Positions 29,825-58,321 of a DNA stretch of 64,000 bases are shown piece by piece; within the stretch, counting starts at the first letter, position 1; each line of letters opens with the position of its first letter. Under the pieces are notes generated by a model. That model was not told where the DNA came from. It saw only the letters and a program-made list of their open reading frames with translations, and did no database searches. This DNA is from Polaribacter reichenbachii (GTDB lineage: Bacteria > Bacteroidota > Bacteroidia > Flavobacteriales > Flavobacteriaceae). The position numbers were made by a program, and so were the translations under genes. The stretch is from assembly GCF_001975665.1 (NCBI RefSeq), contig NZ_CP019419.1, forward strand, positions 1,488,001 to 1,552,000, in the 5' to 3' direction.

Positions 29825-29843
29825 AAGTGTAAAACTAACACTT
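29825..29843. promoter_or_regulatory. Operator-like palindrome AAGTGT-N7-ACACTT (SusC1 side)
   Basis: Perfect 6-bp arms 29825-29830 and 29838-29843 separated by 7 bp, 102 bp upstream of the SusC1 start. Same spacing and arms as four other sites in the window. Confidence 0.6.
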
Positions 29844-30059
29844 ATAGATGGTTTGTGAAGGTGTAAAAAACAACTAATAATGGGGTACAAAATGACTTCA
29901 CTTTATACAAATCTTAGCTAAAAGCTTAATTATCCTATAAAAAACGGTACTTTTTAATAAGTAGTTAATTTAAATTATTTTATTTTTTTGCTAAAATTAT
30001 TCTTAATTTTTAATTAAATATATAATTTTTATAGCGAATATTTTACAGAATTAAATAAT

Positions 30060-30078
30060 AAATGTAAATTACACACTT
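30060..30078. promoter_or_regulatory. Operator-like palindrome AAATGT-N7-ACACTT (sensor-gene side)
   Basis: Arms 30060-30065 and 30073-30078 with one mismatch, spacing 7, 65 bp upstream of the hybrid sensor start at 30144. Confidence 0.5.
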
Positions 30079-30143
30079 ATTAAAATATAGTTATTCTTAT
30101 TTATAATACTAAATTTTATGTTTAGTGAACAGTTTTCAATCAT

Positions 30144-33100
30144 ATGGGTAAAAAATATACATATACCGTTCTTTTTATTTTGTTTTTTATAAGCATAATA
30201 CCTGCACAAGAATCTAAATATATTAAAGACATACTTACTTTTCATTTATTGGATGTAGAGTCTGGCTTATCTCATAATTTTGTAAATGATATTGAACAAG
30301 ACTCTCTTGGTTTTATTTGGATTGCCACTTTAGAGGGTTTAAATAGGTATGATGGTACAAATTTTATTAAGTTTAAAAAAGAGAATACTAAAAATGGTAT
30401 AATTAATAATCATATAAATACTTTAAGAGTAGATGAAAATGGTAAACTAATAATAGCAACCGATAAAGGTGTAAATATTTATAATCCTAAAAAAGAAACA
30501 TTTGAGATTTTTAAACATAATAATAAACCACTTAAAACTCATGTTAGTTCTTTAGAAATATCACCAAATAATCAGCTTATTGTTGGATCAGCTAGAAAAA
30601 AATGGGGATTATCTTTTAAAGATAAAAATGGAAATTTAAAATTTATTAATCATCAATCTCATAATTTATCTTCTTTATCATCTAATTATGTTTCTAGTTT
30701 ATGTGTTCAAGGAGATTCTATTTTATGGATTGGTACCAATAATTTTGGATTAAATAAGTACAATTATAAAAATAAAAAAATAACAAGAGTTTCTTTAGGT
30801 AATAATCTTAATGATAGTTCTTTAACTATAGAGACTTTTTATCTAGATTCTAAAGGTAATTTATGGATGGGGACATCTAACGGACTTTTTGTAATAACTA
30901 AAAACGGTGATACTTTAAAACTAAAAAAATCCTTAATACCAAATAGAGGTTTAAGCGATAATGATATTCTTGCTTTAGAAGAAGATAACCAAAATAAAAT
31001 GTGGATCGGAACAAGAAACGGAGGACTAAATATACTAGATATATCTTCTTTTTTATTAAATAAAAAACTTAACATAAAATGGTACTTACCTAAAAGCGAT
31101 GGCTCTAGTGTTTTTAATAGAACTGTATCATCTATAAAAAAAGATAGCGATGGAAATATGTGGTTAGGTACCAGTACAGGAGTAAATTTTGTAAATCCTA
31201 GGGGAGAACCTATTAAACTATTTAAAAAAAACATAGACAATCCTCATGGTATTAACCACAATAGGATTGGTGCTTTTGCTCAAAAAAGTGATGGTAAAAT
31301 ATGGGTTGGTACAGATGGTGCAGGTCTAAATTTGTTTGATCCTAATACTGGAAAATTTTTAAGCTATAGACATAATTATAAAAATTCTAAAAGTTTAAGT
31401 AACGATTACATAATATCGTTATATGAAGATACTAAAAAAAGAGTTTGGGTTGGTACTTATGGTGGTGGTATAAACAAAATGGATTCAAAAACTGGATTAA
31501 ATAAGCATTATTTACAGCATTCTATAGAAAATGGAAGTGATGTTAGAAAAATTTTCGAGGATAAAAAAGGTCTAATTTGGGTGGGTACAAATCGTGGTGG
31601 ATTATATAAATATAGTGAAACAGATGATAAATTTGAATATGTAAAGAGCTTAGGTAAAATAGATATTAGAGATATTATTAATGACAATTCTGATAACTTA
31701 TGGCTAGCTACATATGGTGATGGTATTTTAAAATACAACCCTGTAAATGACACTTATATTCAGTATAATATGAACAATACAAAAGGAATGACAAGTAATG
31801 TTGTTTTTTGCCTTTTACATCTTAATAATGGAGAAATTCTATCAGGATTAAGGTATGGTGGTCTTATTAAAATTAACCCTAAAACTAAAACTGCTATAAG
31901 TTTTACAGAAAAAGACGGTCTTAGCAATAATACCGTAAGTAGTATTGTTATGGAAGATGAAACAAATGTTTGGCTTGGTACTTTTAATGGAATTAGTCAT
32001 TTTAATACAGCAACAAATAAGGTTGAAAATTTAAACACTTTTAATAACATTCAAAGAAGTGAATTTAATATTGGTGCAGTTTTAAAAGACAAAAATGGAT
32101 ATATTTATTTTGGTGGGAATAAAGGTTTTAATATGTTTAACCCAAAAAATTTAAAAAACAATTTTACTAAATCTTACAAAATTGTTTTTGAAAATATACA
32201 AGTATTAAATAAAAAAATTAACGTAACCCCTTCTGATAAAAATGCTATTTTAAAAGAAGCAATCTCTTACCAAGACAAAATTACCTTAAAGCATAATCAA
32301 AATTTTTTATCAATAGATTTTGCTGTTTTAAAATATCCCGTAGCAAAAAATATACAATATTCTTATATTTTAGAAGGGTATCATAAAAATTGGATAGATA
32401 ATAAAAGCAGTGGTAAAGCAAATTTAAGCAATATACCTGCTGGTAAATACTACTTAAAAGTTAAAGCAAAACTAGATTCTGGTAAAGAGGTATTTGGTAA
32501 GTTGTCTGTAAATATTATTCCTCCTTTTTGGAATACTCCAGTATTTTATACCATATGCATTCTATTATTAATGACTGCCATATATTTTGCTTTAAAATAT
32601 TATTCTGATCATATTAAACTAAAAAACTCTTTATTATTTGAAAAAAAACAACGTCAGCTAGAACAAGATTTTAATAAAGAAAGAATTCGATTTTTTATCA
32701 ACTTTTCTCATGAACTAAGAACACCTCTAACTTTAATTTTAGGCCCAATTGATGATTTATTAAATGAGCTTACAAATAAAAGACATTTAGAAAAACTAGA
32801 TTTAATGAAAAAAAACGGAACTTATCTATCTCAATCTATTAATAAACTTTTAGAATTTAGAAAATCTGAAGTTGGGCTTAGCGATTTAATAATAGGAGAA
32901 TACAACATATCTGATGTATTAAAAAGAATAGTAGATAATTATTTGTTAATGACCCAAAAACAGGGTATTAATTTAACCTATTCTAGTTCTGACAAAAATT
33001 TAATGGTTTGGTTCGATATAGAAAAAATTCAAATAATTATAAATAATTTATTATCAAATGCTATAAAAGCTTGTAAAGAAAAAGATAATATAAATATACA

Positions 33101-34256
33101 TTTAAGTACTGATGAACAGTATTTTAAAATAACAATAAAAGATTCTGGATCTGGAATTCATCCAGAAGATTTTGATCATATATTTGAATGGTACTATCAA
33201 TCTAAATCTCTACCTAGAAAAAAGGGTTCTGGTATTGGGCTTGCTTTATCTAATAACTTAGCAGTATTACACAAAGGGAAAATTAATGTTGAAAGTAAAC
33301 TAAATGAAGGAGCTACTTTTACAGTTTATATACCTAGAGATAAATCATTATTTGAAGCAACTACAGTAAAAAAGGTCCAAAAAAACTTAAATCCAGGTTT
33401 AGAAACAGCTACCCCAGATGCTTTGAGGTCACCATCACTTTTAATACCAGAAGATAAAAAGAAATTAAATGTTCATTTAGGTGAAGAAATGTTATTAATA
33501 TTAATTATTGATGACAATCCAGATATTTTAAAATATCTAGAAGGTATATTAGATAAAAATTACGATTTAATTTATGCTGAAAATGGAGAAAAAGGAATTG
33601 AAAAAGCTATAAAATATGTCCCAGATTTAATTATTTCTGATATTATGATGCCCGTTAAAAGTGGTATCGACTTATGTAATAATTTAAAAAACAATACAAC
33701 TACAGCTCACATTCCTATTATATTATTATCTGCCAAAAATAATATAGAAAGTATTAAGGAAGGGTATGAAACTGGAGCAGATGAATATGTTGTAAAACCA
33801 TTTAACAGCCAACTTCTTTTAACTCGTATAGATAATCTTATCAGTAATAGAAAATCATTGAGTAAATATTTTACAGAACAAAACGAACCTCTTGCCTCTT
33901 TTCCTTTAGAACACACTAAATTAATAGAAAAAGAAAAAGAATTCTTAAGAAGATTAGAAACTATAATTCTAAAAAAATTAAAAGAAGGAAAAGCTAACGT
34001 AAAAGAAATTACAAATGAAATAGGTATGAGCAGAACACCACTTTTTAGAAAAATAAAAGCAATTACTGGTGGTAATATTAATGATTATATTACTACAGTA
34101 AAATTAAAAAAAGCGGCTACCCTTATTAAAAATGAAGAATATTCAATTTCTCAAGCAGCCTTTGAAGTTGGTTACAATAGCCCTAAATATTTTAGAAAAT
34201 TATTTAAAGAACAATTTGGTATAGTGCCTTCTAAATATAAAAATAATATAGACTAA
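30144..34256 (+). CDS. Hybrid two-component system sensor kinase/response regulator (HTCS)
   Basis: 1370 residues, one polypeptide holding a full phosphorelay. A signal-anchor N-terminus (to about 22) is followed by a periplasmic double beta-propeller of two-component (Reg_prop) repeats, with many 'LWIGT.N.GL' units from about 40 to 700. Next come a Y_Y_Y domain (about 710-792), a transmembrane helix (about 796-818), HisKA with NFSHELRTP (H856), HATPase_c with NNLLSNAIKAC and GSGIGLALSNNLA, a receiver (about 1116-1235, SDIMMP, D1166) and an AraC-type DNA-binding domain (about 1290-1370). Such proteins bind oligosaccharides in the periplasm and activate the adjacent SusCD operon. It is divergent from SusC1 and converges on uxuA with 11 bp between stops. 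Confidence 0.95.
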   Translation: MGKKYTYTVLFILFFISIIPAQESKYIKDILTFHLLDVESGLSHNFVNDIEQDSLGFIWIATLEGLNRYDGTNFIKFKKENTKNGIINNHINTLRVDENGKLIIATDKGVNIYNPKKETFEIFKHNNKPLKTHVSSLEISPNNQLIVGSARKKWGLSFKDKNGNLKFINHQSHNLSSLSSNYVSSLCVQGDSILWIGTNNFGLNKYNYKNKKITRVSLGNNLNDSSLTIETFYLDSKGNLWMGTSNGLFVITKNGDTLKLKKSLIPNRGLSDNDILALEEDNQNKMWIGTRNGGLNILDISSFLLNKKLNIKWYLPKSDGSSVFNRTVSSIKKDSDGNMWLGTSTGVNFVNPRGEPIKLFKKNIDNPHGINHNRIGAFAQKSDGKIWVGTDGAGLNLFDPNTGKFLSYRHNYKNSKSLSNDYIISLYEDTKKRVWVGTYGGGINKMDSKTGLNKHYLQHSIENGSDVRKIFEDKKGLIWVGTNRGGLYKYSETDDKFEYVKSLGKIDIRDIINDNSDNLWLATYGDGILKYNPVNDTYIQYNMNNTKGMTSNVVFCLLHLNNGEILSGLRYGGLIKINPKTKTAISFTEKDGLSNNTVSSIVMEDETNVWLGTFNGISHFNTATNKVENLNTFNNIQRSEFNIGAVLKDKNGYIYFGGNKGFNMFNPKNLKNNFTKSYKIVFENIQVLNKKINVTPSDKNAILKEAISYQDKITLKHNQNFLSIDFAVLKYPVAKNIQYSYILEGYHKNWIDNKSSGKANLSNIPAGKYYLKVKAKLDSGKEVFGKLSVNIIPPFWNTPVFYTICILLLMTAIYFALKYYSDHIKLKNSLLFEKKQRQLEQDFNKERIRFFINFSHELRTPLTLILGPIDDLLNELTNKRHLEKLDLMKKNGTYLSQSINKLLEFRKSEVGLSDLIIGEYNISDVLKRIVDNYLLMTQKQGINLTYSSSDKNLMVWFDIEKIQIIINNLLSNAIKACKEKDNINIHLSTDEQYFKITIKDSGSGIHPEDFDHIFEWYYQSKSLPRKKGSGIGLALSNNLAVLHKGKINVESKLNEGATFTVYIPRDKSLFEATTVKKVQKNLNPGLETATPDALRSPSLLIPEDKKKLNVHLGEEMLLILIIDDNPDILKYLEGILDKNYDLIYAENGEKGIEKAIKYVPDLIISDIMMPVKSGIDLCNNLKNNTTTAHIPIILLSAKNNIESIKEGYETGADEYVVKPFNSQLLLTRIDNLISNRKSLSKYFTEQNEPLASFPLEHTKLIEKEKEFLRRLETIILKKLKEGKANVKEITNEIGMSRTPLFRKIKAITGGNINDYITTVKLKKAATLIKNEEYSISQAAFEVGYNSPKYFRKLFKEQFGIVPSKYKNNID

Positions 34257-34267: not shown

Positions 34268-35482
34268 TTAATTTTTGCTCTGTAATAGATGTTTAATTCC
34301 TATTTCTAATCCAGATAACTCTGCGAGTCCTTTTAATCTACCTATTAAAGGATAACCAGGATTAGATTTTCTATTAAAATCATCTAACATTTTGTGTCCA
34401 TGATCTGGTCTAATAGCAATATTATAATCTAATCTACCAGTTTTTTTTCTTCTTAATTGTTCTTCAATAATAACTTGCATTACAGCAGCTAAATTTACAT
34501 TCTCATCTAAATGTTCTGCTTCGTAAAAATCACCATTATCTAATATTTTGGTACTTCTTAAATGTAAAAAATGAACTCTATCTGCATAATCTTTAAATAT
34601 TTCTGGAAGATTATTATCTGTTCTAGCACCTAAAGAACCAGTACAAAATGTAATTCCATTATTTAAAGATGGACATGTTCTTGTTAACCACTCAAAATCA
34701 TCTGGAGTGCTAACAATTCTAGGTAAACCCAATAATGGGTAAGGAGGATCATCTGGGTGAACTGCCAAATTAACACCAAATTCTTCTGCTACAGGTATAA
34801 CTTTACTTAAGAAATATGAAAAATTATCTCTTAGTTTTTCTTTATCAATTCCATCGTATTCTGCTAGTAATTTTAAGAAAATTTTAATAGGTTCTTTTTC
34901 ATCTTCACCAACAGCACCATCAATAAAAGATTGTGTAACTACAATAATATTGTAAGCTATTGCTTTAATTTCATCTTTACTTAATTCACTATATAGAGCT
35001 TTTGCAGCCGCAATTTGCTTTTCTGTATAATCTTTTAAAGCATTTGGCCTTTCTAAAATATAAATATCAAAAGCAGCAAATAAATCTGCTTCAAAATACA
35101 TGGCTTCTGTACCATTTTTAAGAGTATATTTTAAATTAGTTCTAGCCCAATCTAAAACTGGCATAAAATTGTAACAGATAGTAGAAATACCACATTTACC
35201 TAAATTCTTTACACTTTCTTTATAATTTTCAATAATTTTATATCTGCTCGGTTTTCCTTTTTTAATATCTTCATGTAATGGTAAGCTTTCAACCACATCC
35301 CAAGTAAGACCATGAGATTCTATTTTATTTTTAGTTTTTAGGATTTCTTCTACAGACCAAACTTCACCATTTGGAATATGATGAAGTGCTGTAACAATAC
35401 CTTTTGCGCCAGTTTGTGCTATTTGCGCTAAACTAATGGGGTCTTTTTCACCAAACCACCTTAATGTCTTTTTTAATTCCAT
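34268..35482 (-). CDS. uxuA: Mannonate dehydratase
   Basis: 404 residues, standard UxuA length. It converts D-mannonate to 2-keto-3-deoxygluconate in the cytoplasm, the last uronate-specific step before KdgK/KdgA. Family marks: RWFGEKDPISL at the start, GIVTALHHIPNGEVW, ICYNFMPVLDWARTNL, LAVHPDDPPYPLLGLPRIV, ITFCTGSLGA and the C-terminal RPDHGHKM and GYPLIGRLKGLAELSGLE. It is the last gene of the run GH39-like, oxidoreductase, uxuA, 11 bp after the oxidoreductase. The genes for 2-keto-3-deoxygluconate kinase and aldolase are not in the window. Confidence 0.95.
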   Translation of the reverse strand: MELKKTLRWFGEKDPISLAQIAQTGAKGIVTALHHIPNGEVWSVEEILKTKNKIESHGLTWDVVESLPLHEDIKKGKPSRYKIIENYKESVKNLGKCGISTICYNFMPVLDWARTNLKYTLKNGTEAMYFEADLFAAFDIYILERPNALKDYTEKQIAAAKALYSELSKDEIKAIAYNIIVVTQSFIDGAVGEDEKEPIKIFLKLLAEYDGIDKEKLRDNFSYFLSKVIPVAEEFGVNLAVHPDDPPYPLLGLPRIVSTPDDFEWLTRTCPSLNNGITFCTGSLGARTDNNLPEIFKDYADRVHFLHLRSTKILDNGDFYEAEHLDENVNLAAVMQVIIEEQLRRKKTGRLDYNIAIRPDHGHKMLDDFNRKSNPGYPLIGRLKGLAELSGLEIGIKHLLQSKN

Positions 35483-35493
35483 ATTATTTTAAA

Positions 35494-36312
35494 TTATACT
35501 CCACTAAAAGAACTAAAACCACCATCTATAGGAATAATTGTACCTGTTATAAAGCTTGCAGAATCTGAACATAAAAAATGAACCATTCCATTTAATTCGT
35601 TAATATCACCAAAACGTTTCATTGGTGTTCTAGCTAAAACTTTTTTACTTCTTTCTGTGTAAGAACCATCATCATTAATTAAAACTTTTCTGTTTTGGTC
35701 TCCAATAAAAAATCCTGGTGAAATCGCATTTACACGCACTTTTTCTCCAAATTTAGTACCTAATTCCATCGCTAACCATTTTGTAAAAATGTCTATTCCA
35801 CTTTTTGCAACAGAATATCCAGGAACACGAGTTATAGCAGATAATGTAGCCATTGAAGATACATTAATAATACTTCCTTTTCCATTATTAGCCATTGCTT
35901 CTCCAAAAACCAAACAAGGATAAACAGTACCATTTAAATTAAGGTTTGTAACTTTTTCAAAATCTTCAATTTTCATATCGAAAACTGTTTGCTCTTCTGT
36001 TAATGTAGCACCAGGTAAATTACCTCCTGCTGCATTAATTAAGATATCTATACTACCCCAAGCATCCAAAATTTTAGATCTTGTTACTTTCATTTCTTCT
36101 ACATCTAAAACATTAGAAACAAAACCAATAGCTTCGCCACCAAGTTCTTCTAATTCTTTTACTCTGTTATTTACATTTTCTTCACGAATATCTAAAACAA
36201 CAACTTTACAACCTGCTTTTACTAAATGTCTAGAAATACTTCCTCCTAAAACACCTCCACCACCAGTAACGATAGCAACTTTACCTTTTATGTCAAAAAA
36301 ATTATCACTCAT
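35494..36312 (-). CDS. Short-chain D-mannonate oxidoreductase (fructuronate reductase role)
   Basis: 272 residues of the short-chain dehydrogenase family. The cofactor motif TGGGGVLGG lies at about 16-24, NAAGG at about 92, and the catalytic tyrosine-lysine motif YSVAKSG follows the serine pair INVSS. The C-terminal IDGGFSSFSGV is typical. Its place directly before uxuA indicates D-fructuronate to D-mannonate reduction, as carried out by SDR-type enzymes in several Gram-positive and Bacteroidota uronate operons in place of the long-chain UxuB. The family alone would not fix the substrate; the assignment rests on context. The gene is 18 bp after the GH39-like gene. Confidence 0.8.
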   Translation of the reverse strand: MSDNFFDIKGKVAIVTGGGGVLGGSISRHLVKAGCKVVVLDIREENVNNRVKELEELGGEAIGFVSNVLDVEEMKVTRSKILDAWGSIDILINAAGGNLPGATLTEEQTVFDMKIEDFEKVTNLNLNGTVYPCLVFGEAMANNGKGSIINVSSMATLSAITRVPGYSVAKSGIDIFTKWLAMELGTKFGEKVRVNAISPGFFIGDQNRKVLINDDGSYTERSKKVLARTPMKRFGDINELNGMVHFLCSDSASFITGTIIPIDGGFSSFSGV

Positions 36313-36330
36313 TTTATTTATTATTATAGT

Positions 36331-38340
36331 TTAGTTTTTAAAAATTCTTTTTGTTGATGTTTGTTCTTTATTAAAAATTTTAATAAAATAAACTCCTTTT
36401 GAAAGTTTACTAATATTTAAAGAACTATTATTTGAAATTACTTTTTTATTAATTAAAAGTCTACCTGTATTATCATATAAATGTAAAGTATTCTTTTCTG
36501 AATAATTTTTATCAATCTCAATATTAATTATATTTAATGCAGGATTTGGATAAATATTAAAGCTTAATTTATTATTGATATTTGTAACTTTTGCTGTTTC
36601 TAATTCTCCTAAAAAAGTTAAATCAAATTTATCTAACACTATAAAATACCCATTTGATGCTGGATTTTTACCAACTACTTCAAATTTTAAATTTAAATCT
36701 TCAGTACCAACTTCAATATTCCCAAAATCGTTCTTATAATAACCCAAGTCGCTATTATATAAATCTTCTGGCGGACAAGTTGCTTTACCATTAATGTATA
36801 GTTGAACAAAACCACGATTAGAAGCTCCTTTAAGAATTGCAGATAAATTATAAATACCTGCCCCTGGAGATGGTATTGTATATTCTATATAATCTCCAAC
36901 AGAATTTGATTCTAAAGCTACAGAAGAACCATTACTGGCAATTTGTTCATTAAAAATATATGGTTGTTTTCCTGTTGTAAAAGAATTTTTAATAGTTAAA
37001 TTTTCTGCTTCAAAAGACATTTTATTATTATTACTAGTAGCTGCAGAAATATAGATTGCGTACGAGCTTTTAGGAATCATTCTTGGTAGGTTTAGAGATA
37101 CAGTGTTATTATTTAATTCATAATCTTGGGCAACAACAACTTCAGGATTTGTGAGTATCATTTCATTTGTTATTTTTTCTACTCTAATGTTTACTTTTTC
37201 TTCATATTTTAAATACTCAGGAATATTATTTAAAGTTAAAGTTACATCATGTTCGGTAAAGTAATTTCGTGTTCCAATTAAAATAACAGATCTTTTCATA
37301 TTACTGTCTAGACTAGCAATTGCATCAGAATTTGCGCCTTCTATATTTACATCAACTTTTCTACCTGTCATGTCTTTATAGGTATTATAATTCCACCACA
37401 GACCTCTTGGTAAATTTGCGTTATCTCTATCTGCCATATCTGCAAGAGTTGCTATAAAATCAGGATCATCTCCTACACGTGTCCAACAAGCATGTAAACC
37501 AAATTCGAAACCATACTGCACAGCTCTTTCCATAGATGCTAGGTAATATACATTAACACCAGGAATAGAGGTGTTGTCATTAGAATAGGATTCTCCTTGG
37601 TATTCTGTAACTGTCATTGGCATTGGTGTAATTTCATTAGCCAACATCCATTCTTTTAATTCTTTACAGTGTGCTTCTATATTTAAAGGGTCATTAGATA
37701 ATTCATGCCAAGCTAAAATTTCTGGTAAACAATTATTGGTTTTACAGTATAACAAAAACTGTTTCATAAAATCGAAATTATAAGAATGATCTTCTGGAGC
37801 TTGAAGTTTAGCTAAAGGGTTTATAGCTTTTATAGCTTTATAAGCTACTTCATGAGCTTTAAAGTATCTATTTCTATTAGAATTGCTGTTTCCCCATTGT
37901 AAGCGAGGCTCATTCCAAGTAATCCAAGAATAAATATCTAAATTTTTAGTCTGTGCATCATTGTAAACATTTTTACAAATTTCTTCCCATTTATTAAAAT
38001 CTCCTCCATCTCCTGGAAAATAAGAATCATTTGCTCTATAATAATATAAGCCAATCATTAATTTAGCTTCTGTTTCTTTTGCTCTTTTATAAGTTGGTTC
38101 TTCAAAAAAACTAGGTAAATTAGGATGATAATCTGCACCTCTTATAGATCTAACTTTAATACCATCAATTAAATATTGGGCAGGGTTATTGGCACTAATT
38201 CCATGTAAAAGACCACTTGCAACTTGTTTAGATGTTCCTTTATCTATAGTATAATCTATGGATATTTTTGATGAAGTTTGAGCATAGGTTGTTGAAAATA
38301 TAAAATAGGAAACTACTGTAATTAAAAATTTACCTCTCAT
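36331..38340 (-). CDS. T9SS-secreted clan GH-A glycosidase (GH39-like) with carbohydrate-binding module
   Basis: 669 residues with a signal peptide ending at about TYAQ (21). The N-terminal barrel (about 25-330) has acid/base WITWNEP (E144) and nucleophile MTVTEYQGE (E246), the arrangement of clan GH-A and most like GH39 or agarase-like enzymes. A beta-domain follows to about 430, then a CBM6/CBM35-like jelly roll (about 435-580, FEAENLTI, VGDYIEYTIP). A T9SS sorting tail with IYPNPALN spans about 595-669. It probably acts outside the cell. Being first of a transcript that continues into oxidoreductase and uxuA, it may release a uronate-bearing oligosaccharide. The family assignment is tentative. 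Confidence 0.7.
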   Translation of the reverse strand: MRGKFLITVVSYFIFSTTYAQTSSKISIDYTIDKGTSKQVASGLLHGISANNPAQYLIDGIKVRSIRGADYHPNLPSFFEEPTYKRAKETEAKLMIGLYYYRANDSYFPGDGGDFNKWEEICKNVYNDAQTKNLDIYSWITWNEPRLQWGNSNSNRNRYFKAHEVAYKAIKAINPLAKLQAPEDHSYNFDFMKQFLLYCKTNNCLPEILAWHELSNDPLNIEAHCKELKEWMLANEITPMPMTVTEYQGESYSNDNTSIPGVNVYYLASMERAVQYGFEFGLHACWTRVGDDPDFIATLADMADRDNANLPRGLWWNYNTYKDMTGRKVDVNIEGANSDAIASLDSNMKRSVILIGTRNYFTEHDVTLTLNNIPEYLKYEEKVNIRVEKITNEMILTNPEVVVAQDYELNNNTVSLNLPRMIPKSSYAIYISAATSNNNKMSFEAENLTIKNSFTTGKQPYIFNEQIASNGSSVALESNSVGDYIEYTIPSPGAGIYNLSAILKGASNRGFVQLYINGKATCPPEDLYNSDLGYYKNDFGNIEVGTEDLNLKFEVVGKNPASNGYFIVLDKFDLTFLGELETAKVTNINNKLSFNIYPNPALNIINIEIDKNYSEKNTLHLYDNTGRLLINKKVISNNSSLNISKLSKGVYFIKIFNKEQTSTKRIFKN

Positions 38341-38515
38341 AAAAAATAGTGTTCAAGTTGAAGAATGTTTAGTTTATTAATTAATAACAATTCTTAAAAA
38401 GAATTTATAAAGTAAAGATTTATAAAAAAATGAAACGAGGTAAAATTTAGCAAAATAGAGGGTAGTTATTGGTTTATTTTATTAAAATTACTCTAGTTTT
38501 TAATATTGAATTATT

Positions 38516-43642: not shown

Positions 43643-43654
43643 CTTTAATGTTTT

Positions 43655-47052: not shown

Positions 47053-47100
47053 GGGGTCGAAGTTTAATACACGCCAATGTTTTGCTTCGCCCTTTTTTTT
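47053..47100 (+). terminator. Plus-strand terminator-like hairpin in the fecR-susC2 gap
   Basis: GGGG.CGAAG (47053-47062) can pair with CTTCGCCC (47085-47092), followed by eight T on the plus strand. No plus-strand gene precedes it, and on the minus strand the U-run would come before the stem. Function is uncertain. Confidence 0.3.
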
Positions 47101-47110
47101 CAAAAAAAAA

Positions 47111-48274: not shown

Positions 48275-48363
48275 TAATTGTGTATTTTTTTAACCTAAAA
48301 ATATGCTTAATTAACTTTTAGACGACAAAAAAGATAAAGAGGGTTAAATTTTTTTTATATTTA

Positions 48364-48978: not shown

Positions 48979-49668
48979 TTATATTTTAAGATAAAAGTTT
49001 TTTTCTTGTTTAGCATCATATTTTTGCTGATCGAATTGATATAAAAACGAACCTTTTGTAGAAGAAGACATGTCTTTTTCTTTTAATTTTACTAATATAT
49101 CCATAGAATTTATTTTATTAATAAAATTTCTCTTATCCAATTTTTTATCTAAAATAGCTTCATACAATTTTTGTAATTGACGCATTGTAAATTTTTCGGG
49201 TAATAGTTCAAAACCTATAGGATTAATTGAGGTTCTTCTCCTTAATCGTCTTACAGCTTTCTTTAAGATAATGTTATGATCAAAAATTAAATCGGGTACT
49301 TTAGAAAGGCTAAACCACTTGGCATTATAATTTTGAATTAACTCTTTATTATGTTTTTCTATGTTTACAATTGCATAATATGATGTAGAAATGGTTCTAT
49401 CTACAGGGTCTCTGTCAACCTCACTAAAAGAATAGAGTTGTTCCATATAAATATTATGCATACCTGTTAATTTAAATAAAACTCTTGAGGCAGCATCATC
49501 TAGCGTTTCTTCTTTTTTTAAAAAACCACCCATTAAAGACCATTTCCCTTTTTCAGGTTCAAAATCTCTTCGAATTAGAAGAACTTTTAAATCTTCATCA
49601 TCAAAACCAAAGATGATACAGTCTACTGCTAAAAAAACTTTATATTCAGAATAATAACCTTTATGCAT
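48979..49668 (-). CDS. Nudix-like transcriptional regulator of arabinose/PUL genes (AraR/NrtR type)
   Basis: 229 residues. The N-terminal Nudix fold (about 8-140) has the box at residues 48-70. The spacing of GX5EX7REUXEEXGU is kept, but the catalytic glutamates are replaced: V63 for E in the RE position, and K66 and L67 for the EE pair. Hydrolysis is therefore unlikely and the fold probably senses a ligand. A winged-helix DNA-binding domain follows (about 150-225, FTMRQLQKLYEAILDKKLDKRNFINKI). This is the organisation of the Bacteroidota arabinose regulator AraR, a Nudix-derived repressor. It is divergent from araBDA, with two palindromic sites in the shared intergenic region. Ligand L-arabinose is inferred. 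Confidence 0.85.
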   Translation of the reverse strand: MHKGYYSEYKVFLAVDCIIFGFDDEDLKVLLIRRDFEPEKGKWSLMGGFLKKEETLDDAASRVLFKLTGMHNIYMEQLYSFSEVDRDPVDRTISTSYYAIVNIEKHNKELIQNYNAKWFSLSKVPDLIFDHNIILKKAVRRLRRRTSINPIGFELLPEKFTMRQLQKLYEAILDKKLDKRNFINKINSMDILVKLKEKDMSSSTKGSFLYQFDQQKYDAKQEKNFYLKI

Positions 49669-49730: not shown

Positions 49731-49749
49731 AAGTGTAAAAATAACATTT
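49731..49749. promoter_or_regulatory. Operator-like palindrome AAGTGT-N7-ACATTT (ara promoter, distal)
   Basis: Arms 49731-49736 and 49744-49749 with one mismatch and 7-bp spacing, in the 189-bp gap between the Nudix-like regulator and araB. Confidence 0.6.
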
Positions 49750-49795: not shown

Positions 49796-49814
49796 AAATG
49801 TAAAATTTACACTT
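49796..49814. promoter_or_regulatory. Operator-like palindrome AAATGT-N7-ACACTT (ara promoter, proximal)
   Basis: Arms 49796-49801 and 49809-49814 with one mismatch and 7-bp spacing, 43 bp before the araB start. It is 65 bp from the first site centre to centre, about six helical turns, allowing binding on one face or looping. Confidence 0.6.
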
Positions 49815-49857: not shown

Positions 49858-51531
49858 ATGAAAAGTTATGTAATAGGTTTAGACTATGGTTCAGATTCTG
49901 TAAGAGCTATTTTAATAGATGCCCTAAATGGAAATGAGATTGCATCTGAGGTATTTTGGTACCCAAGATGGAAAAAACAACAATACTGTAATTCTAGAAT
50001 TAATCAGTTTAGACAACATCCACTAGATCATATAGAAGGTTTAGAACAAACAATTAAATCTGTAATTTATCAAGGTAAAATAAATCCAGAACTAATTGTA
50101 AGCATCTGTATAGATACAACAGGTTCTTCTCCTTTACCTGTAAATATAAATGGAATTCCTTTAGCTTTATTAGATGAATTTAAAGAAAATCCAAATGCTT
50201 TAATGGTACTTTGGAAAGATCATACAGCTGTTAAAGAGGCTAACGAAATAAATGATCTAGCTAAAACTTGGGGAGGTAAAGATTTTACAAAATTTGAAGG
50301 TGGTATTTATTCTTCTGAATGGTTTTGGGCTAAAATTTTACATATTATAAGAGAAGATAAAGATGTAAAAGATGCTGCTTACACATGGATGGAACATTGT
50401 GATTATATGACATATATGTTGGCAGACAATAAAGATTTAAATACTTTTAAAAGAAGTAGGTGTGCTGCAGGGCATAAAGCAATGTGGCATAAAAGCTGGA
50501 ATGGTTTACCCGATGAACAATTTTTAAATCAATTAGATCCATATTTAGCAGGTTTAAAAGATAATCTTTACGAAGCAACTTATACTTCAGATGAAATTGC
50601 GGGTCATTTAAATGAAGAATGGGCTGATAAATTGGGCTTAACTACTAAAACAGTTATAGCAGTTGGTACTTTTGATGCACATTCTGGTGCAGTAGGTGCT
50701 AAAGTAGATCAACATACATTGGTAAGAGTTATGGGTACTTCTACTTGTGATGTTATGATTGCAAATGATGAATTAATAGGAGATAAATGCGTTCGTGGAA
50801 TTTGCGGACAAGTAGATGGTTCTGTGATTCCTGGTTTTATAGGTTTAGAAGCAGGTCAATCTGCATTTGGAGATGTTTTGGCATGGTTTAAAAATTTATT
50901 ATCATGGCCAATTGATAATTTAGTATTAACTTCAAAAATACTAACCAAAGAACAAAAAGAAAAACTTCAAGAAGAAATAGATGCTAATTTTATTAAAACA
51001 TTAGCAGAACAAGCAGAAAAAATTCCTTTAGAAGAAGCGGTACCAATTGCGTTAGATTGGGTTAATGGTAGAAGAACACCAGACGCAAACCAAGAATTAA
51101 AAGCTGCTTTTACAAGTATTTCTTTAGGTACAAAAGCACCTCATATTTTTAAAGCATTGGTAAATGCAATTTGTTTTGGTTCTAAGATGATTGTAGATCG
51201 TTTTGAAAGCGAAGGTGTAGAAATAAAATCGGTTATTGGTATTGGTGGTGTTGCACGTAAATCTCCATTTATTATGCAAACTTTAGCCAATGTCTTAAAT
51301 ATGCCAATTAAAGTAGCAGAATCTGACCAAGCACCAGCTTTAGGAGCTGCAATTTATGCTGCAGTTGCTGCAGGCGTTTACAGTAATGTAATTGAAGCTA
51401 GTAAAGTAATGGGAAGTGATTATGAAGCAGAATATTTCCCAGAAGAAAATCACATAAAAACATACGCAAACTTAATGGAATCTTATAAAACATTAGGCGA
51501 ATTTGTAGAAGAGACTATAAAAACTAAATAA
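49858..51531 (+). CDS. araB: L-ribulokinase
   Basis: 557 residues, the usual AraB length; FGGY kinase family. The N-terminal phosphate-1 motif is GLDYGSDSVRAILID, with later TFDAHSGAVGAKV, VRVMGTSTCDVM and the C-terminal adenosine-binding IGGVARKSPFIMQTLANVL and ALGAAIYAAVAAGVY. It phosphorylates L-ribulose to L-ribulose 5-phosphate. It is the first gene of the plus-strand arabinose operon, 1 bp before araD, behind two operator-like sites. Confidence 0.95.
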   Translation: MKSYVIGLDYGSDSVRAILIDALNGNEIASEVFWYPRWKKQQYCNSRINQFRQHPLDHIEGLEQTIKSVIYQGKINPELIVSICIDTTGSSPLPVNINGIPLALLDEFKENPNALMVLWKDHTAVKEANEINDLAKTWGGKDFTKFEGGIYSSEWFWAKILHIIREDKDVKDAAYTWMEHCDYMTYMLADNKDLNTFKRSRCAAGHKAMWHKSWNGLPDEQFLNQLDPYLAGLKDNLYEATYTSDEIAGHLNEEWADKLGLTTKTVIAVGTFDAHSGAVGAKVDQHTLVRVMGTSTCDVMIANDELIGDKCVRGICGQVDGSVIPGFIGLEAGQSAFGDVLAWFKNLLSWPIDNLVLTSKILTKEQKEKLQEEIDANFIKTLAEQAEKIPLEEAVPIALDWVNGRRTPDANQELKAAFTSISLGTKAPHIFKALVNAICFGSKMIVDRFESEGVEIKSVIGIGGVARKSPFIMQTLANVLNMPIKVAESDQAPALGAAIYAAVAAGVYSNVIEASKVMGSDYEAEYFPEENHIKTYANLMESYKTLGEFVEETIKTK

Positions 51532-51532
51532 A

Positions 51533-52234
51533 ATGAGTTCTAAATATAAATCTCTAAAAGAAGAGTGTTACGAGGCCAATATGCAACTAAATGCATTAGA
51601 TCTTGTGGTCTATACTTTTGGTAACGTTAGTGCTGTAGATAGAGAAAACGGAGTGTTTGCCATAAAACCAAGTGGTGTTGCTTACGAAAACCTTAGACCA
51701 GAAGATATTGTTATTTTAGATTATGATAATAATATAGTTGAAGGTAAAATGAGACCGTCATCTGACACAAAAACACATTCTTACTTATATAAAAACTGGG
51801 ACGACATTGGCGGAATTGCGCATACACATGCTAAATTTTCTTGTGCTTGGGCACAAGCGCAACAAGATGTACCTATTTTTGGAACAACTCACGCAGATCA
51901 TTTAACAGCAGATATTCCTTGTGCACCACCAATGAGTGATGAACTTATAAAAGGAAACTACGAGCACAATACCGGAATTCAAATTTTAGATTGTTTTAAA
52001 GATAAAAACCTATCTCATAATGAAGTAGAAATGATTTTAATAGGAAATCATGGGCCGTTTGCTTGGGGTAAAAATGCAGCAAAAGCTGTTTATAATAGTA
52101 AAGTATTAGAAGTGGTTGCTGAAATGGCATATTTAACACTTCAAATTAACCCTAATGCACAGAGGTTAAAAAATTCATTAATTAAAAAACATTACGAACG
52201 TAAGCATGGTAAAAATGCTTATTACGGACAATAA
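51533..52234 (+). CDS. araD: L-ribulose-5-phosphate 4-epimerase
   Basis: 233 residues, class II aldolase/adducin fold. It converts L-ribulose 5-phosphate to D-xylulose 5-phosphate. Metal-binding histidines are in [15 protein letters not shown], and substrate phosphate residues are in [10 protein letters not shown] and [15 protein letters not shown] marks the third metal-ligand region. Its gene sits 1 bp after araB and 11 bp before araA, completing the usual arabinose kinase, epimerase, isomerase set. Confidence 0.95.
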
Positions 52235-52245
52235 CCAACTATAAT

Positions 52246-53754
52246 ATGATTGATATATCTAACAAAGAAATTTGGTTTGTAACAGGTAGCCAGCACCTTT
52301 ATGGTGAAGAAACTTTAAATCAAGTAGCAAAAAATTCGCAAGAAATAGCAAAAGGTCTAGACGATTCTAAAAATATTCCTGTAAAAATTATCTTTAAACC
52401 AACTGTAAAAACCCCCTCAGAAATTACAGCAATTTGTGAAGCTGCAAATGCTTCTAAAGCTTGTATTGGTATAATTACTTGGATGCATACTTTTTCTCCT
52501 GCAAAAATGTGGATTGCTGGTTTAAATCTTTTAAATAAACCTTTGTGTCATTTACACACCCAGTTTAATGCAGAAATTCCTTGGAAAGATATTAATATGG
52601 ACTTCATGAATTTAAATCAATCTGCTCATGGAGATAGAGAATTTGGTTACATCATGTCTCGTATGCGTATTAAACGTAAAGTTGTTGTTGGTCATTGGCA
52701 AGAAGAAAAAGTACAAAATAAAATAGGTATTTGGTCTAGAGTTGCTTTAGGTTGTGATGAAATGAAGAACTTAAAAGTTGCTCGTTTTGGAGACAATATG
52801 CGTGAAGTTGCAGTAACAGATGGAGATAAAGTAGAAGCGCAAATACGTTTTGGAATGTCTGTAAATGGTTATGATTCTTCAGATATTACTAAAAAAATAG
52901 AAGATGTAACCTCAGAGCAAGTAGATGATTTAGTAAAAGTTTACGAAAAAGAATATAACTTATCTGATAATTTAAAATTAGGTGGTAAAATGAGAGACTC
53001 TCTTATTGAATCTGCCAAAATAGAAATTGGATTACGTACATTTTTAGATGAAGGTGGTTTTAGAGCTTTTACAGATACTTTCGAAAACTTAGGAAGTTTA
53101 AAACAATTACCAGGTTTAGCGGTACAACGTTTAATGGCAGATGGTTATGGTTTTGGAGGAGAAGGAGATTGGAAAACAGCTGCTATGCTTAGAGTTATGA
53201 AGGTAATGGCTTATGGTTTAGAAGGTGGAACTTCTTTTATGGAAGATTATACGTATCACTTTACGCCTCAAAAATCTTATGTCTTAGGATCACATATGCT
53301 AGAAATTTGTCCTACTATTGCAGATGCAAAACCTTCTTGTGAAGTTCATCCTTTAGGAATTGGCGGAAAAGAAGACCCTGTACGTTTGGTATTTAATTCT
53401 CCTGAAGGTGATGCAATAAATGCATCTTTAGTAGATATGGGTAATCGTTTTAGGTTAATTGTTAATGAAGTAGAAGCTGTAAAACCAATGGAAGATTTAC
53501 CAAATTTACCTGTAGCACGCGTACTTTGGGATGCAAAACCAAATTTAGATATTGCTGCAACTACTTGGATTCTGGCTGGTGGAGCACATCATACTGTATA
53601 TTCTCAAGCAATTACAACAGAATATATGGAAGATTTTGCAGATATCTTTGGCATTGAATTACTTGTTATAGATAATGATACTAAAGTTAGAAGCTTTAAA
53701 AACACAATGAATGCAAACGAAGCTTATTACAATACGTTTCAACATGGATTATAA
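52246..53754 (+). CDS. araA: L-arabinose isomerase
   Basis: 502 residues, standard AraA length. It interconverts L-arabinose and L-ribulose with Mn2+. Marks: VTGSQHLYG at the start, [56 protein letters not shown] with a metal-binding glutamate, [12 protein letters not shown] and [10 protein letters not shown] with the next, and GGAHHTVYS near the end. Third gene of the operon. Confidence 0.97.
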
Positions 53755-53777
53755 TATTAACTAAAAACTTTTTAAAG

Positions 53778-54956
53778 ATGAAAATTTTAAAACCTCTTTC
53801 TTATCTTTTTATATTTATTCTTGTTTTAGGGCTTTTTACAGATTGTAAAGGCAATAAAAAAGAAGCTATAAAAAAACAAGATGAAACTTTGGGTAAATTA
53901 GCAATTAACATTTCTGATTTTGGTAAAACAAAAGAAGGAAAACCAGTTGAAAAATTTACGCTAAAAAACACCAATGGTGTAGAAGTAGATATTATTACTT
54001 ACGGAGGAAGAATTACATCTTTAAAAGTACCAAATAGTAAAGGTGTTTTAGAAAATGTAGTTTTAGGATTTGATAATATTGAAGATTATGAAAATGATAA
54101 TCCTTTCTTTGGAGCTTTAATTGGCCGTTACGGAAACAGAATTGCAAAAGGTAAATTTAATTTAGAAGGAAAAGAATATACTTTAGCAAAAAACAATGAC
54201 GAGAATCATTTACATGGTGGAGTTATTGGTTTTGATAGAGTTATTTGGACGGCTACACCAATAGAAGGAACTGAAGATTCGTCTTTAAAGTTAACCTACT
54301 TAAGTAAAGATGGTGAAGAAGGATATCCTGGAAACTTAAAGGTAACCGTTGTTTATACACTAACAAAAGACAATGCAATTGAAGTTTCTTACGAAGCGAC
54401 TTCAGACAAAACAACCGTTGTTAATTTAACTCAACATGCTTATTTTAATTTATCCGCAGATTTTTCTAAAGAAATTTTAGATCATGAAATTGTTTTAAAT
54501 GCAGACGCTTTTATACCTGTAGATGCGACTTTAATTCCTACAGGAGAAATTAGAAAAGTTACAGGAACACCTTTCGATTTTACATCAGCCAAAAAAATAG
54601 CTAAAGAAATAAATTCTAACAATAAACAATTAAAATTAGGTTTGGGTTACGATCATTGTTGGGTTTTAAATGGTGCAAAAGGAGATATGCGTTTTGCTGC
54701 TTCTGCTTATAATGAAGAAAGCGGACGTTTCATGGAAATTTTCACAGAAGAGCCAGGTATACAATTGTACACAGGTAACTTTTTAGACGGAACTTTACCA
54801 ATGCTAAATGGCGGAACTTATGCTCATAGAACAGGGTTTTGTTTAGAAACACAACATTTTCCAGATTCCCCAAACCAAAAAGACTTTCCTTCTACAGTTT
54901 TAAAGCCAGGACAAGTATATACAACCAAAACAACTTTTAAATTTTCAACTAAATAA
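53778..54956 (+). CDS. galM: Aldose 1-epimerase (mutarotase), lipoprotein
   Basis: 392 residues. Unlike cytoplasmic GalM it has a signal peptide with lipobox LFTDC (C25), so it is lipid-anchored in the periplasm. Family marks: GRYGNRIAKGKF, NHLHGG (substrate histidine), NLTQHAYFNLS (catalytic histidine), LGYDHCW and the catalytic glutamate in GFCLETQHFPDSPN. It interconverts alpha and beta anomers of arabinose or galactose freed by the periplasmic glycosidases, probably to feed the symporter encoded next (26-bp gap). Confidence 0.9.
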   Translation: MKILKPLSYLFIFILVLGLFTDCKGNKKEAIKKQDETLGKLAINISDFGKTKEGKPVEKFTLKNTNGVEVDIITYGGRITSLKVPNSKGVLENVVLGFDNIEDYENDNPFFGALIGRYGNRIAKGKFNLEGKEYTLAKNNDENHLHGGVIGFDRVIWTATPIEGTEDSSLKLTYLSKDGEEGYPGNLKVTVVYTLTKDNAIEVSYEATSDKTTVVNLTQHAYFNLSADFSKEILDHEIVLNADAFIPVDATLIPTGEIRKVTGTPFDFTSAKKIAKEINSNNKQLKLGLGYDHCWVLNGAKGDMRFAASAYNEESGRFMEIFTEEPGIQLYTGNFLDGTLPMLNGGTYAHRTGFCLETQHFPDSPNQKDFPSTVLKPGQVYTTKTTFKFSTK

Positions 54957-54982
54957 CAATCAACTAACTAAAAATATTAATT

Positions 54983-56548
54983 ATGGGAATATTATCATTT
55001 GTTGCATTTACTTTACTTGTAGCAGTTATAGCTTGGTGGTCTACACGAAAAACTAATGAAAAATCATCTGATGGTTATTTTTTAGGTGGAAGAAGTTTAA
55101 CGGGCCCAGTGATTGCGGGATCTTTACTATTAACTAATTTATCTACGGAACAAATTGTTGGAATGAATGGAGTTTCTTTTAGGGATGGTTTACCAATTAT
55201 GGCATACGAAGTTGTAGCAGCTATTGCAATGGTTTTTACAGCTTTTATTTTATTGCCAAAATATCTTAAAAGTGGTATTGCAACGATTCCTCAATTTTTA
55301 GAAAAAAGATATGGTAAAAGTACAAAAACAATAGTTTCTTTATTATTTTTATTAGGCTATGCAATTTCTATGTTGCCTACTGTACTATATTCTGGTGCAT
55401 TAGCAATTAACACAATGTTTGATATTCCTCAGTCATTAGGAATGGAGCCAGAACCAGCTCTTTGGGTAACAGTTTGGGCTATTGGTATTATTGGTAGTAT
55501 TTATGCCATTTTTGGAGGATTAAAAGCAGTAGCAGTTTCAGACTCTATTAATGCCGTAGGATTAATTATCGGAGGGTCTTTAATACCTATTTTTGGTTTG
55601 ATGAAGATTGGTGATGGTAACATAATAACAGGATTACAAAAGCTTACAACAGCATTACCAGAAAAGTTCGATATTATAGGTGGACCTGATTCTGATGTAC
55701 CTTTTTGGACCCTTTTTACAGGAATGATAATCGTTAATTTCTATTATTGGGGAACAAATCAAGCAATTATACAAAGAGCTCTTGGTGCTAAAAACTTAAA
55801 AGAAGGTCAAAAAGGACTTTTATTAGCTGCTTTTATAAAAATATTAGGTCCGTTTATTGTTGTTTTACCAGGTATTATTGCTTTTTATATTTTTAATGGA
55901 GATATTGCAAATGCAGATGAAGCTTATCCAATGGTTGTAAAAGCTGTTTTACCAGTTGCTTTTATTGGATTTTTTGCTGCTGTTCTTTTCGGAGCAATTT
56001 TAAGCTCTTTTAATAGTGCTTTAAATAGTTCTGTAACTTTATTTGGTTTAGATTTTTATAAAGAATATTTTAACCATAATGCTTCTGAAAAACAAATAGT
56101 AAGAGCCGGAAAAACATTTGGAATTGTTTTAGCACTATTTTCTATGGCAATTGCACCTTTATTATATGGTGTAGAAGGTGGGATTTTTACATATTTACAA
56201 GAACTAAATGGAACACACAGTGTACCAATTTTAGCTATAATACTTGTTGGTATATTTTCTAAGAAAGTTTCAGGAAAAGCGGCAAATATTGCTATTTTAT
56301 TTAGTGTGGTTACATACTTAACTACGCTTTATGTAATTAAGCCAGATATTAGTTTTTTACATCTAATGGGAATACTTTTTGTGTTAACTGTTATTATAAT
56401 GTTTGTGGTTAGTAAATTTGTTCCAAGAGAAACCGAATATGTTCAGGAGTATACAAAGCAAGTAGATATTACCTCTTGGAAATACTTAAAACCTGTTGGT
56501 TATACAATAGTTGCTATTGTTGTAGGGGTTTATATTTATCTATCTTAA
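54983..56548 (+). CDS. Sodium/sugar symporter (SSS family), probable arabinose importer
   Basis: 521 residues with about 14 transmembrane segments of the sodium:solute symporter (SGLT-like) family. Typical stretches are GGRSLTGPVIAGSLLLTNLSTEQIVGMNG early, PQFLEKRYG after the third helix, ISMLPTVLYSGA, YAIFGGLKAVAVSD, YWGTNQAIIQRALGAKNLKEGQKGL and SSFNSALNSS. It carries a monosaccharide with Na+ across the inner membrane. The place in the araBDA-galM transcript points to L-arabinose; galactose is an alternative. Last gene of the operon before a strong terminator. Confidence 0.88.
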   Translation: MGILSFVAFTLLVAVIAWWSTRKTNEKSSDGYFLGGRSLTGPVIAGSLLLTNLSTEQIVGMNGVSFRDGLPIMAYEVVAAIAMVFTAFILLPKYLKSGIATIPQFLEKRYGKSTKTIVSLLFLLGYAISMLPTVLYSGALAINTMFDIPQSLGMEPEPALWVTVWAIGIIGSIYAIFGGLKAVAVSDSINAVGLIIGGSLIPIFGLMKIGDGNIITGLQKLTTALPEKFDIIGGPDSDVPFWTLFTGMIIVNFYYWGTNQAIIQRALGAKNLKEGQKGLLLAAFIKILGPFIVVLPGIIAFYIFNGDIANADEAYPMVVKAVLPVAFIGFFAAVLFGAILSSFNSALNSSVTLFGLDFYKEYFNHNASEKQIVRAGKTFGIVLALFSMAIAPLLYGVEGGIFTYLQELNGTHSVPILAIILVGIFSKKVSGKAANIAILFSVVTYLTTLYVIKPDISFLHLMGILFVLTVIIMFVVSKFVPRETEYVQEYTKQVDITSWKYLKPVGYTIVAIVVGVYIYLS

Positions 56549-56930: not shown

Positions 56931-56966
56931 AAATAGCCTATTAAGAATTTACTTAATAGGCTATTT
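56931..56966 (-). terminator. Terminator of the uronate MFS gene
   Basis: A perfect 15-bp stem, 56931-56945 with 56952-56966, loop of 6 nt. On the minus strand it follows the stop at 56989 by 22 bp and runs into a T-rich tail (complement of the A-run before 56931). Confidence 0.85.
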
Positions 56967-56988
56967 ATATATTTAGAAATCTACTATA

Positions 56989-58287
56989 CTATGCTTTAGA
57001 AAGATTTAAATTTTCGTCTAGTGGAATCATTTTTGGCATTAATAAATGAACCAAACCAAGAATAATTAAATAACAAGAACCTGCTAGTAAAAACGCCCAG
57101 AAATAACCTGTATTACCTGCAGAATCTAAAACAGATCCTAATGCCATATCTGCAACAATACCAGAAACTGCTCCAATCATACCACCAATACCAACAACAG
57201 ATGCTGTAGCTTTTCTTGGAAATACATCAGAAACCAATGTAAAGATGTTTGCAGACCAAGCTTGATGACCAGCTGCTCCTAAACCAATTAAGAAAACAGC
57301 AATCCATTTGTTATCTGTAATGGCAACAAAACTTACTGGTAGAATTATTAATGCACAAATTAATAACGTAACTTTTCTAGCTTTGTTAACGGTCCAACCT
57401 CTGTGCATTAACGCTCCAGAAAGATAACCTCCAAAAATACTACCTCCATCTGCTAAAAGATAAATTACAAAGAATGGTAAAGCTATATTTTTAATATTTA
57501 CATCAAAAGTATCTGCTAAAAACTTTGCTCCCCAGAATAAATAGAACCACCACACTGCATCTGTAACTTTTGCTAAACCAAAAGCCCAAGTTTGACGCTT
57601 TTTTAAAACACTTTTCCAAGGTAATTTATCTTCATTTTCTACTACAGAATCACTTTGAATATAGGCTAATTCTTCTTTTGTTACTTTTGGATGTACTTGT
57701 GGTTTTTTATACATCTTTAACCATAAAAAGATCCAAATTGTGCTTAAAACACCTGTAATTAAAAATGGAATTTGCCAATTTTTACCATTTTCATGCACAA
57801 TCCAACCAATTACAAATGGTGCTGAGATTGCACCAATACTTGTAGCTGCATTAAATAAGCCAGTAGCAAAAGCTCTATCTTTTTTTGGAAACCATTCTGC
57901 AGTTGTTTTTATAGCTGCCGGAAAATTTCCTGCTTCACCAAACCCCAAACCAAATCTTGCAGCAGCAAAACCAATAATACTAAATCCTGGTCTTACTAAT
58001 GCGTGTAACATTCCAAAAAAACTCCATATTGCAATAGATAATGTGTATCCTTTTTTTGTTCCTAAACGATCTATTAATCCTCCCATAGAAAGCATACCTA
58101 GTGCATAAGCTACTTTAAAAGAAATCATAATATTTGCATAATCACTATTTGTCCATCCAAACATTTTTTCTAGAGTAGGTGCTATTACTCCAATAATACT
58201 TCTGTCAAAATAATTAATTGTTGTAGCAAACATTAGTAATGCTAAAATTCGATAACGATAGTTTGCTATCTTTTTTGTTTTATCCAT
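56989..58287 (-). CDS. Major facilitator uronate transporter (ExuT-like, anion:cation symporter family)
   Basis: 432 residues with 12 predicted transmembrane helices. The opening RILALLMFATTINYFDRSIIGVIAPTLEKMFGW, the loop motif GGLIDRLGTKKGY and GFGEAGNFPAAIKTTAEWFPKKDRA are hallmarks of the ACS family that includes hexuronate transporter ExuT. It likely imports glucuronate and/or galacturonate with protons. It is a single-gene transcript with its own terminator, and its -7 box is covered by the shared operator-like palindrome. It faces the separate uxaC-TRAP transcript upstream on the same strand. Confidence 0.88.
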   Translation of the reverse strand: MDKTKKIANYRYRILALLMFATTINYFDRSIIGVIAPTLEKMFGWTNSDYANIMISFKVAYALGMLSMGGLIDRLGTKKGYTLSIAIWSFFGMLHALVRPGFSIIGFAAARFGLGFGEAGNFPAAIKTTAEWFPKKDRAFATGLFNAATSIGAISAPFVIGWIVHENGKNWQIPFLITGVLSTIWIFLWLKMYKKPQVHPKVTKEELAYIQSDSVVENEDKLPWKSVLKKRQTWAFGLAKVTDAVWWFYLFWGAKFLADTFDVNIKNIALPFFVIYLLADGGSIFGGYLSGALMHRGWTVNKARKVTLLICALIILPVSFVAITDNKWIAVFLIGLGAAGHQAWSANIFTLVSDVFPRKATASVVGIGGMIGAVSGIVADMALGSVLDSAGNTGYFWAFLLAGSCYLIILGLVHLLMPKMIPLDENLNLSKA

Positions 58288-58298
58288 AATTAAATTAT

Positions 58299-58321
58299 AT
58301 AAGTGTCAAATATACACTTAT
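58299..58321 (-). promoter_or_regulatory. MFS promoter: -7 box TATATTTG inside palindrome ATAAGTGT-N7-ACACTTAT
   Basis: Perfect 8-bp arms 58299-58306 and 58314-58321 around 7 bp, the best of the five sites in the window. On the minus strand the spacer plus the preceding T reads TATATTTG, an exact Bacteroidota -7 box (58307-58314). TTA, one base off TTG, stands 19 bp upstream. A protein bound here would block polymerase. Confidence 0.65.

Follow-up and report, generated by a model that had tools for sequence, protein, structure and literature searches.

Predicted AraR operators at arabinose genes and an arabinogalactan-type glycan locus of Polaribacter reichenbachii

In this study, we asked which regulator acts on a near-palindrome, AARTGT-N7-ACAYTT, that recurs in 64,000 nucleotides of the Polaribacter reichenbachii genome (contig NZ_CP019419.1, positions 1,488,001 to 1,552,000; this whole stretch is the window, and its own numbering is used unless genome positions are named), and how far the control reaches. 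A preliminary description of this DNA had reported five copies, at genes for arabinose use, uronate-type transport, and a polysaccharide utilization locus (PUL), and had proposed that one regulator, the Nudix-like protein encoded divergently from araB, ties them together. Our analysis makes it highly probable that the palindromes are operators of the arabinose repressor AraR at araR/araB, between SusC1 and a hybrid two-component sensor (HTCS) gene, at a DUF2264/glycosidase locus, and probably at the transketolase and transaldolase genes (tkt-tal), and that L-arabinose releases AraR from them.

All five copies lie where they had been reported, match the motif exactly with 7-bp spacing, and fall outside the listed open reading frames (ORFs). 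The window holds six exact matches against 0.06 ± 0.24 expected from shuffles, and none of 100 shuffles reached six. Two more exact intergenic sites lie to the left of the window, at genome positions 1481975 and 1485523. A 27-bp matrix was built from these seven intergenic sites, three of which have ATGT in place of GTGT in one half, on one side. Their leave-one-out scores were 20.2–26.6, and the next best place in 94 kb scored 14.4; places in the region scoring 10–14.4 were not taken as operators. In 155 kb of host sequence, nine places scored 20 or more compared with 0.02 for 200 permuted matrices, a comparison that leans upward because the matrix was built on seven of the nine and some of the sequence had been chosen for motif matches. 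The sixth match in the window, absent from the preliminary description, is probably due to chance because of its low matrix score. The sites in the window are as follows.

29825-29843, no strand: predicted AraR operator, 102–120 bp 5' of the SusC1 start codon; exact motif, score 25.8, leave-one-out 21.6.
30060-30078, no strand: predicted AraR operator, 66–84 bp 5' of the HTCS start codon; exact motif, score 24.6, leave-one-out 21.0.
49731-49749, no strand: predicted AraR operator 1 of a tandem pair, araR/araB intergenic; exact motif, score 25.1.
49796-49814, no strand: predicted AraR operator 2 of the tandem pair, araR/araB intergenic; exact motif, score 26.9.
58301-58319, no strand: AraR-type site, 14–32 bp 5' of the start codon of a major facilitator superfamily (MFS) transporter gene; exact motif, score 27.7.
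19585-19603, no strand: exact match within the GH2 gene 18730-21891; score 8.7.

The proposed regulator is encoded beside the tandem pair.

48979-49668, minus strand: araR, a NUDIX and NrtR/AraR winged-helix repressor.

Its product has NUDIX, NrtR_WHD, and AraR_C domains (PF00293, PF21906, PF19368), each over its cut-off, and its closest solved relative is AraR of Bacteroides thetaiotaomicron (BtAraR, 5bs6; E 1.5e-70, residues 3–218 of 229), with 102 of 216 aligned residues (47%) identical; the second is 3gz5 (E 1.6e-22). The model for ADP-ribose-responsive NrtR (NCBIfam NF050029) remained below its cut-off (134.8 bits vs 400), and the Nudix box is impaired: Val, Lys, and Leu replace the three Glu of REUXEEXGU (translation, by eye). 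The L-arabinose-bonding residues of BtAraR, Arg34, Arg86, and His131 (PMC4666351), are all kept, as are six of seven further pocket residues (the exception is Val92, replaced by Thr). The operator in the BtAraR crystal, AAGTGT-TACTTTT-ACACCC (PMC4666351, Table 2), has the same AAGTGT-N7-ACAC core and 7-bp spacing as the local sites; it scores 9.1 with the local matrix, a value reached by one of 20,000 letter shuffles (mean −21.0). Judged by its sequence, the protein divergent from araB is a Bacteroidota AraR (NrtR-type), and its nomination as the common regulator is well supported by homology to BtAraR, the kept arabinose residues, and the recurrence of sites together with AraR.

That recurrence was followed across 80 named araR loci, which rank best among at least 581 relatives. 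A site scoring 16 or more is present in 77 of them, and 214 of the 225 matches are intergenic, where only 10% of bases are intergenic; 11 matches are genic and 4 face no gene. Permuted matrices (100) gave a mean of 1.8 matches in the same loci. The genes facing a site, labelled within 600 bp with both sides counted, were araR (121), SusC-like (78), unlabelled (52), araB (34), AraP-like (28), tkt (15), tal (3), and an extracytoplasmic function (ECF) sigma factor gene (1); the araR count is built in because the loci were found by araR. The link between araB and SusC is therefore present in relatives as well. Recurrence in related species, proposed earlier as a check on the motif, holds for araR, SusC, araB, and tkt, but applies to the HTCS gene in a minority only and to the MFS gene in none of 16 homologues at score 16. 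Across 199 family genomes, a stringent form of the site gave 116 strand-hits (control, 15) in 25 genomes that encode a close AraR, host included, 49 (control, 16) in 36 genomes with a more distant relative, and 85 (control, 49) in 138 genomes with none at E 1e-40. The tandem pair at araR/araB is spaced 65 bp start to start, and a 65-bp pair also stands beside araR in three relatives (G159, G175, G134). G157 has such a pair as well, its second site scoring just 15.9; in these four, araR usually faces SusC and araB has its own site. At the level of sequence comparison, the identity of the sites and of the regulator and the recurrence of the core regulon in Flavobacteriaceae are established; DNA binding, repression, and the role of arabinose as effector would carry over from B. 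thetaiotaomicron by analogy.

The genes next to the four sites at SusC1, HTCS, and araB are the following.

49858-56548, plus strand: araB, araD, araA, aldose 1-epimerase (araM-like), and sodium/solute symporter (araP-like), after the tandem pair; Pfam, NCBIfam.
26667-29723, minus strand: SusC1, head of a same-strand glycan-degradation run; TIGR04056 and ORFs.
8766-26698, minus strand: SusD1, GH115, GH2, GH43, GH30, GH145-like, GH88/105, GH31, and GH43; Pfam and structure matches.
30144-34256, plus strand: HTCS with propeller, HisKA, HATPase, receiver, and AraC-type helix-turn-helix domains; Pfam.

The best solved matches of the BNR_4 protein in this run, 5muk, 5mum, 4irt, and 5mvh, are named GH145 (PMC8406133), and those of the GH115 protein include BtGH115A. 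The enzyme set led by SusC1 thus appears to be of arabinogalactan type, and AraR probably switches arabinose and plant-gum genes together in this bacterium. With the HTCS gene adjoining SusCD and an AraR-type site 5' of SusC1, the layout of dual control by HTCS and AraR is present. A second set, SusC2/SusD2/FG-GAP (window 34268-48915), comes with ECF sigma and FecR genes of its own and lacks a strong AraR site; uxuB-uxuA follow it on the same strand.

To the left of the window, one site separates two DUF2264 genes from a glycosidase gene, and the other lies 5' of a gene for a protein with a type IX secretion system (T9SS) tail, followed by tkt and tal. The tkt-tal link is credible because sites directly precede tkt in four relatives (G127, G175, G159, G071), although the stretches of G175 and G159 were chosen for holding the motif. 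Two adjacent DUF2264 genes lie at L014:14153-17411; solved relatives of the DUF2264 protein 14153-15421 are 8oi4, a beta-galactosidase by name, and 9o4u and 9nwf, glucuronate dehydratases by name.

Several observations weigh against AraR control in its full extent. According to PMC4666351, six DNA contacts of BtAraR (Lys179, Arg180, Asn181, Lys184, Lys204, and Arg205) are conserved throughout the AraR orthologues studied, and only the first three are kept here; Lys184 is replaced by Asn, Lys204 by Thr, and Arg205 by Lys. We take the six-contact conservation as an observation on the orthologues of that study, not as a definition of AraR. Three of the 80 araR loci have no site at score 16, conservation of sites beside araR is partly common descent, and 65 bp is not the commonest spacing below 300 bp in these loci (99 bp, 16 pairs; 89 bp, 10; 65 bp, 5). 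Elsewhere in the genome, a full-strength site (27.3, genome 2039035-2039053) lies about 50 bp 5' of a C39-peptidase/VKOR/thioredoxin gene with no evident link to sugars. A scan for the promoter box TTG, 18–23, TAnnTTTG, with one mismatch allowed, placed no box for SusC1, HTCS, araB, or the MFS gene; it gave candidates for only araR and DUF2264b among nine genes and was set aside. In B. thetaiotaomicron, an araR mutation left the mRNA of the arabinan PUL genes tested unchanged on arabinose or glucose and altered only the kinetics on arabinan (PMC5061871), so that AraR as a repressor of the PUL may be modest. Finally, the closest HTCS homologue (65% identity) lacks a site, and none of 16 other MFS homologues has one at score 16.

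The last two points favour a narrower explanation, to which we assign a substantial probability that falls somewhat short of even: the core sites (araR-araB, SusC1, DUF2264, and tkt) would be AraR operators, the site at 30060 would be auxiliary for SusC1 and that at 58301 recent or unused, and neither the HTCS nor the MFS gene would be under AraR. Analogues of the 30060 site within 600 bp upstream were found in only 4 of 20 other HTCS homologues at score 16 and in 7 at score 13; scoring was confined to the two best candidates of each genome, one homologue displayed as 16.0 fell just under 16, and an HTCS copy with two stops (L137), beside which a site scores 19.1, was left out of the 20. These counts nevertheless exceed those of 200 permuted matrices (means 0.05 and 0.23, maximum 3 each). 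Where HTCS is divergent from SusC, the sites may serve SusC alone. The narrower explanation also draws on B. thetaiotaomicron, where binding by BtAraR is described at the promoters of araM and BT0365. The rise in mRNA of the HTCS BT0366 is ascribed there to autoregulation (PMC5061871). The earlier link to the sensor gene stands insofar as the site is there, but its recurrence is minor, and the putative control of the HTCS gene itself is less supported than that of the core.

Putative AraR control of the uronate-type MFS gene is the weakest part of the proposal. This gene and its neighbours are as follows.

56989-58287, minus strand: MFS transporter of galactonate/hexuronate type (putative substrate); TIGR00893 at 236 bits, under its cut-off of 395, and a match to the D-galactonate transporter PDB 6e9n.
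58716-62909, minus strand: TRAP transporter genes and uxaC; no strong AraR site, the best being 13.2 at 61495.

The MFS site scores 27.7, which speaks against the narrower explanation, as does one relative (G061, AraR-type protein 53% identical) that keeps 15 identical bases with one half-site 22 bases before the MFS start (20 here) and a total score of 15.9. In favour of that explanation, the site is missing at score 16 from all six of the 16 homologue genomes or loci known to have an AraR-type match; its absence from the other ten says little because no such match is known there. A further locus with the MFS gene at a contig end (L112), without a match at score 13, was left out of the 16. 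The matrix scan of the region placed no strong site at uxaC, the TRAP genes, uxuA, or uxuB, which leaves a single transporter gene as the basis for linking a second monosaccharide pathway. The transporter is of an acid-sugar type, and uxaC is next to or near it in all five relatives with the neighbourhood examined, of 17 homologue loci; however, since the site does not recur and the uronate catabolic genes lack strong ones, the uronate link is weak. The site had also been placed over the MFS promoter: it is close to the start codon, but the overlap is unsupported because the box scan placed no box there. An inverted repeat, terminator-like by eye, separates the MFS gene from the TRAP genes at 58480-58514.

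It is very unlikely that the palindrome belongs to another regulator, such as a Crp-like sugar regulator, the HTCS through its AraC-type domain, or an NrtR-type paralogue. Such a paralogue does exist (genome 3450778-3451485, 38% identical to AraR), and arabinose/arabinan genes of B. thetaiotaomicron have the HTCS and BT4338 as further regulators (PMC5061871). However, Lys179 is aligned with Asn in the paralogue, and the palindrome beside the latter, AGACGT-N7-ACGTTT, scores just 12.5; the Crp-like consensus wwwTATGTTnTAnAACATAwww has a different half-site (PMC3878776); no site-adjacent gene is labelled HTCS in the 80 araR loci, HTCS binding sites not having been searched for; and the stringent site tracks the presence of a close AraR in the family genomes. 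PfkB and mannitol-dehydrogenase proteins are among the neighbours of the paralogue.

The genome scan proposed in the preliminary description confirmed clustering but not an excess in total. The motif as written is not selective, since it occurs at 13 places genome-wide against 11 for the pattern read backwards, and at 139 against 152 with one mismatch; as a genome-wide marker it was rejected. For WAAGTGTWWWWWWWACACTTW with three mismatches, the counts were 184 and 193 in the control. Eight of the 13 exact places fall within a single stretch of 64 kb (Poisson P 1.6e-11 against the backwards-pattern rate, the stretch having been picked after the sites were seen); the other five score 27.3, 13.3, 7.0, 6.5, and 4.2. 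That AT-rich palindromes arose here by chance, as the similar genome-wide totals might suggest, is next to impossible given this clustering, the shuffles, and the recurrence in relatives, which refute chance for the cluster as a whole, although single sites could still be chance. Of the one-mismatch sites, one at genome 1754488 scores 20.3 and lies 5' of a gene whose 935-aa product has carboxypeptidase-regulatory-like domains, and one at genome 1602267 scores 19.4 and lies where a uvrC-type gene begins.

We propose a model for AraR in P. reichenbachii. Dimers of apo-AraR would occupy AAGTGT-N7-ACACTT sites at the divergent araR/araB promoters, where two operators lie 65 bp apart, and also the stretch between SusC1 and the HTCS gene of the arabinogalactan-type PUL, the DUF2264/glycosidase locus, and probably the tkt-tal operon. 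Cytoplasmic L-arabinose would release AraR from the DNA, and polymer-specific activation would come from the HTCS. More tentatively, and on balance doubtfully, AraR may gate the sensor: without cytoplasmic arabinose, the HTCS and the PUL would be held down, and arabinose, as a proxy for arabinogalactan, would open the tkt-tal outlet as well as a glucuronate-type transporter. Feed-forward gating of this kind is not described for Bacteroides AraR in the excerpts of PMC4666351 and PMC5061871. These data extend a structurally solved repressor of gut Bacteroides to Flavobacteriaceae with a recurrent operator, and yield a predicted, directly testable regulon of arabinose genes, SusC genes, symporters, and tkt-tal, as well as a case in which a monosaccharide repressor may control the gene of a polymer sensor.

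The AraR system proposed here would be an ordinary one with a somewhat wider reach than that described before. In B. thetaiotaomicron, AraR represses arabinose genes and is antagonised by arabinose (PMC5061871), and the AraR regulons of Bacteroides take in PUL genes and share members with HTCS regulons (PMC4666351; PMC3878776). A role wider than araBDA, as earlier claimed, is right for this locus but not new in kind, being published for Bacteroides AraR (PMC4666351, PMC3878776, PMC5061871). A limited open-access library yielded no flavobacterial AraR regulon. Arabinogalactan PULs (PMC8406133; Maribacter, PMC11036162) have GH145-like genes beside GH88/105, GH115, and GH43, as here, and the main text of the Maribacter paper contains neither "AraR" nor "Nudix". 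The BtAraR system (BT0354, L-arabinose repressor of the NrtR family; PMC4666351) shares the domain order, the arabinose-bonding residues, the GTGT-N7-ACAC operator, a pair of operators ahead of the arabinose operon, and further sites before PUL genes including SusC. It differs in that araR lies inside araMPRDAB, whereas araR is divergent from araB here; in the three changed DNA contacts; and in the present sites near the HTCS gene, the uronate-type MFS gene, the DUF2264 genes, and, via the T9SS-protein gene, tkt-tal ("transketolase", "transaldolase", and "uronate" do not occur in the main text of PMC4666351). Furthermore, the arabinan PUL of B. thetaiotaomicron is under joint control by HTCS BT0366 and AraR (PMC5061871), so this kind of control is known; the effect of araR on an arabinogalactan PUL gene there is modest. 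Both systems have a polymer-sensing HTCS beside SusCD and AraR, here by prediction, on a SusC-side promoter, whereas P. reichenbachii has a second site adjoining the HTCS gene and a PUL that appears to be of arabinogalactan type.

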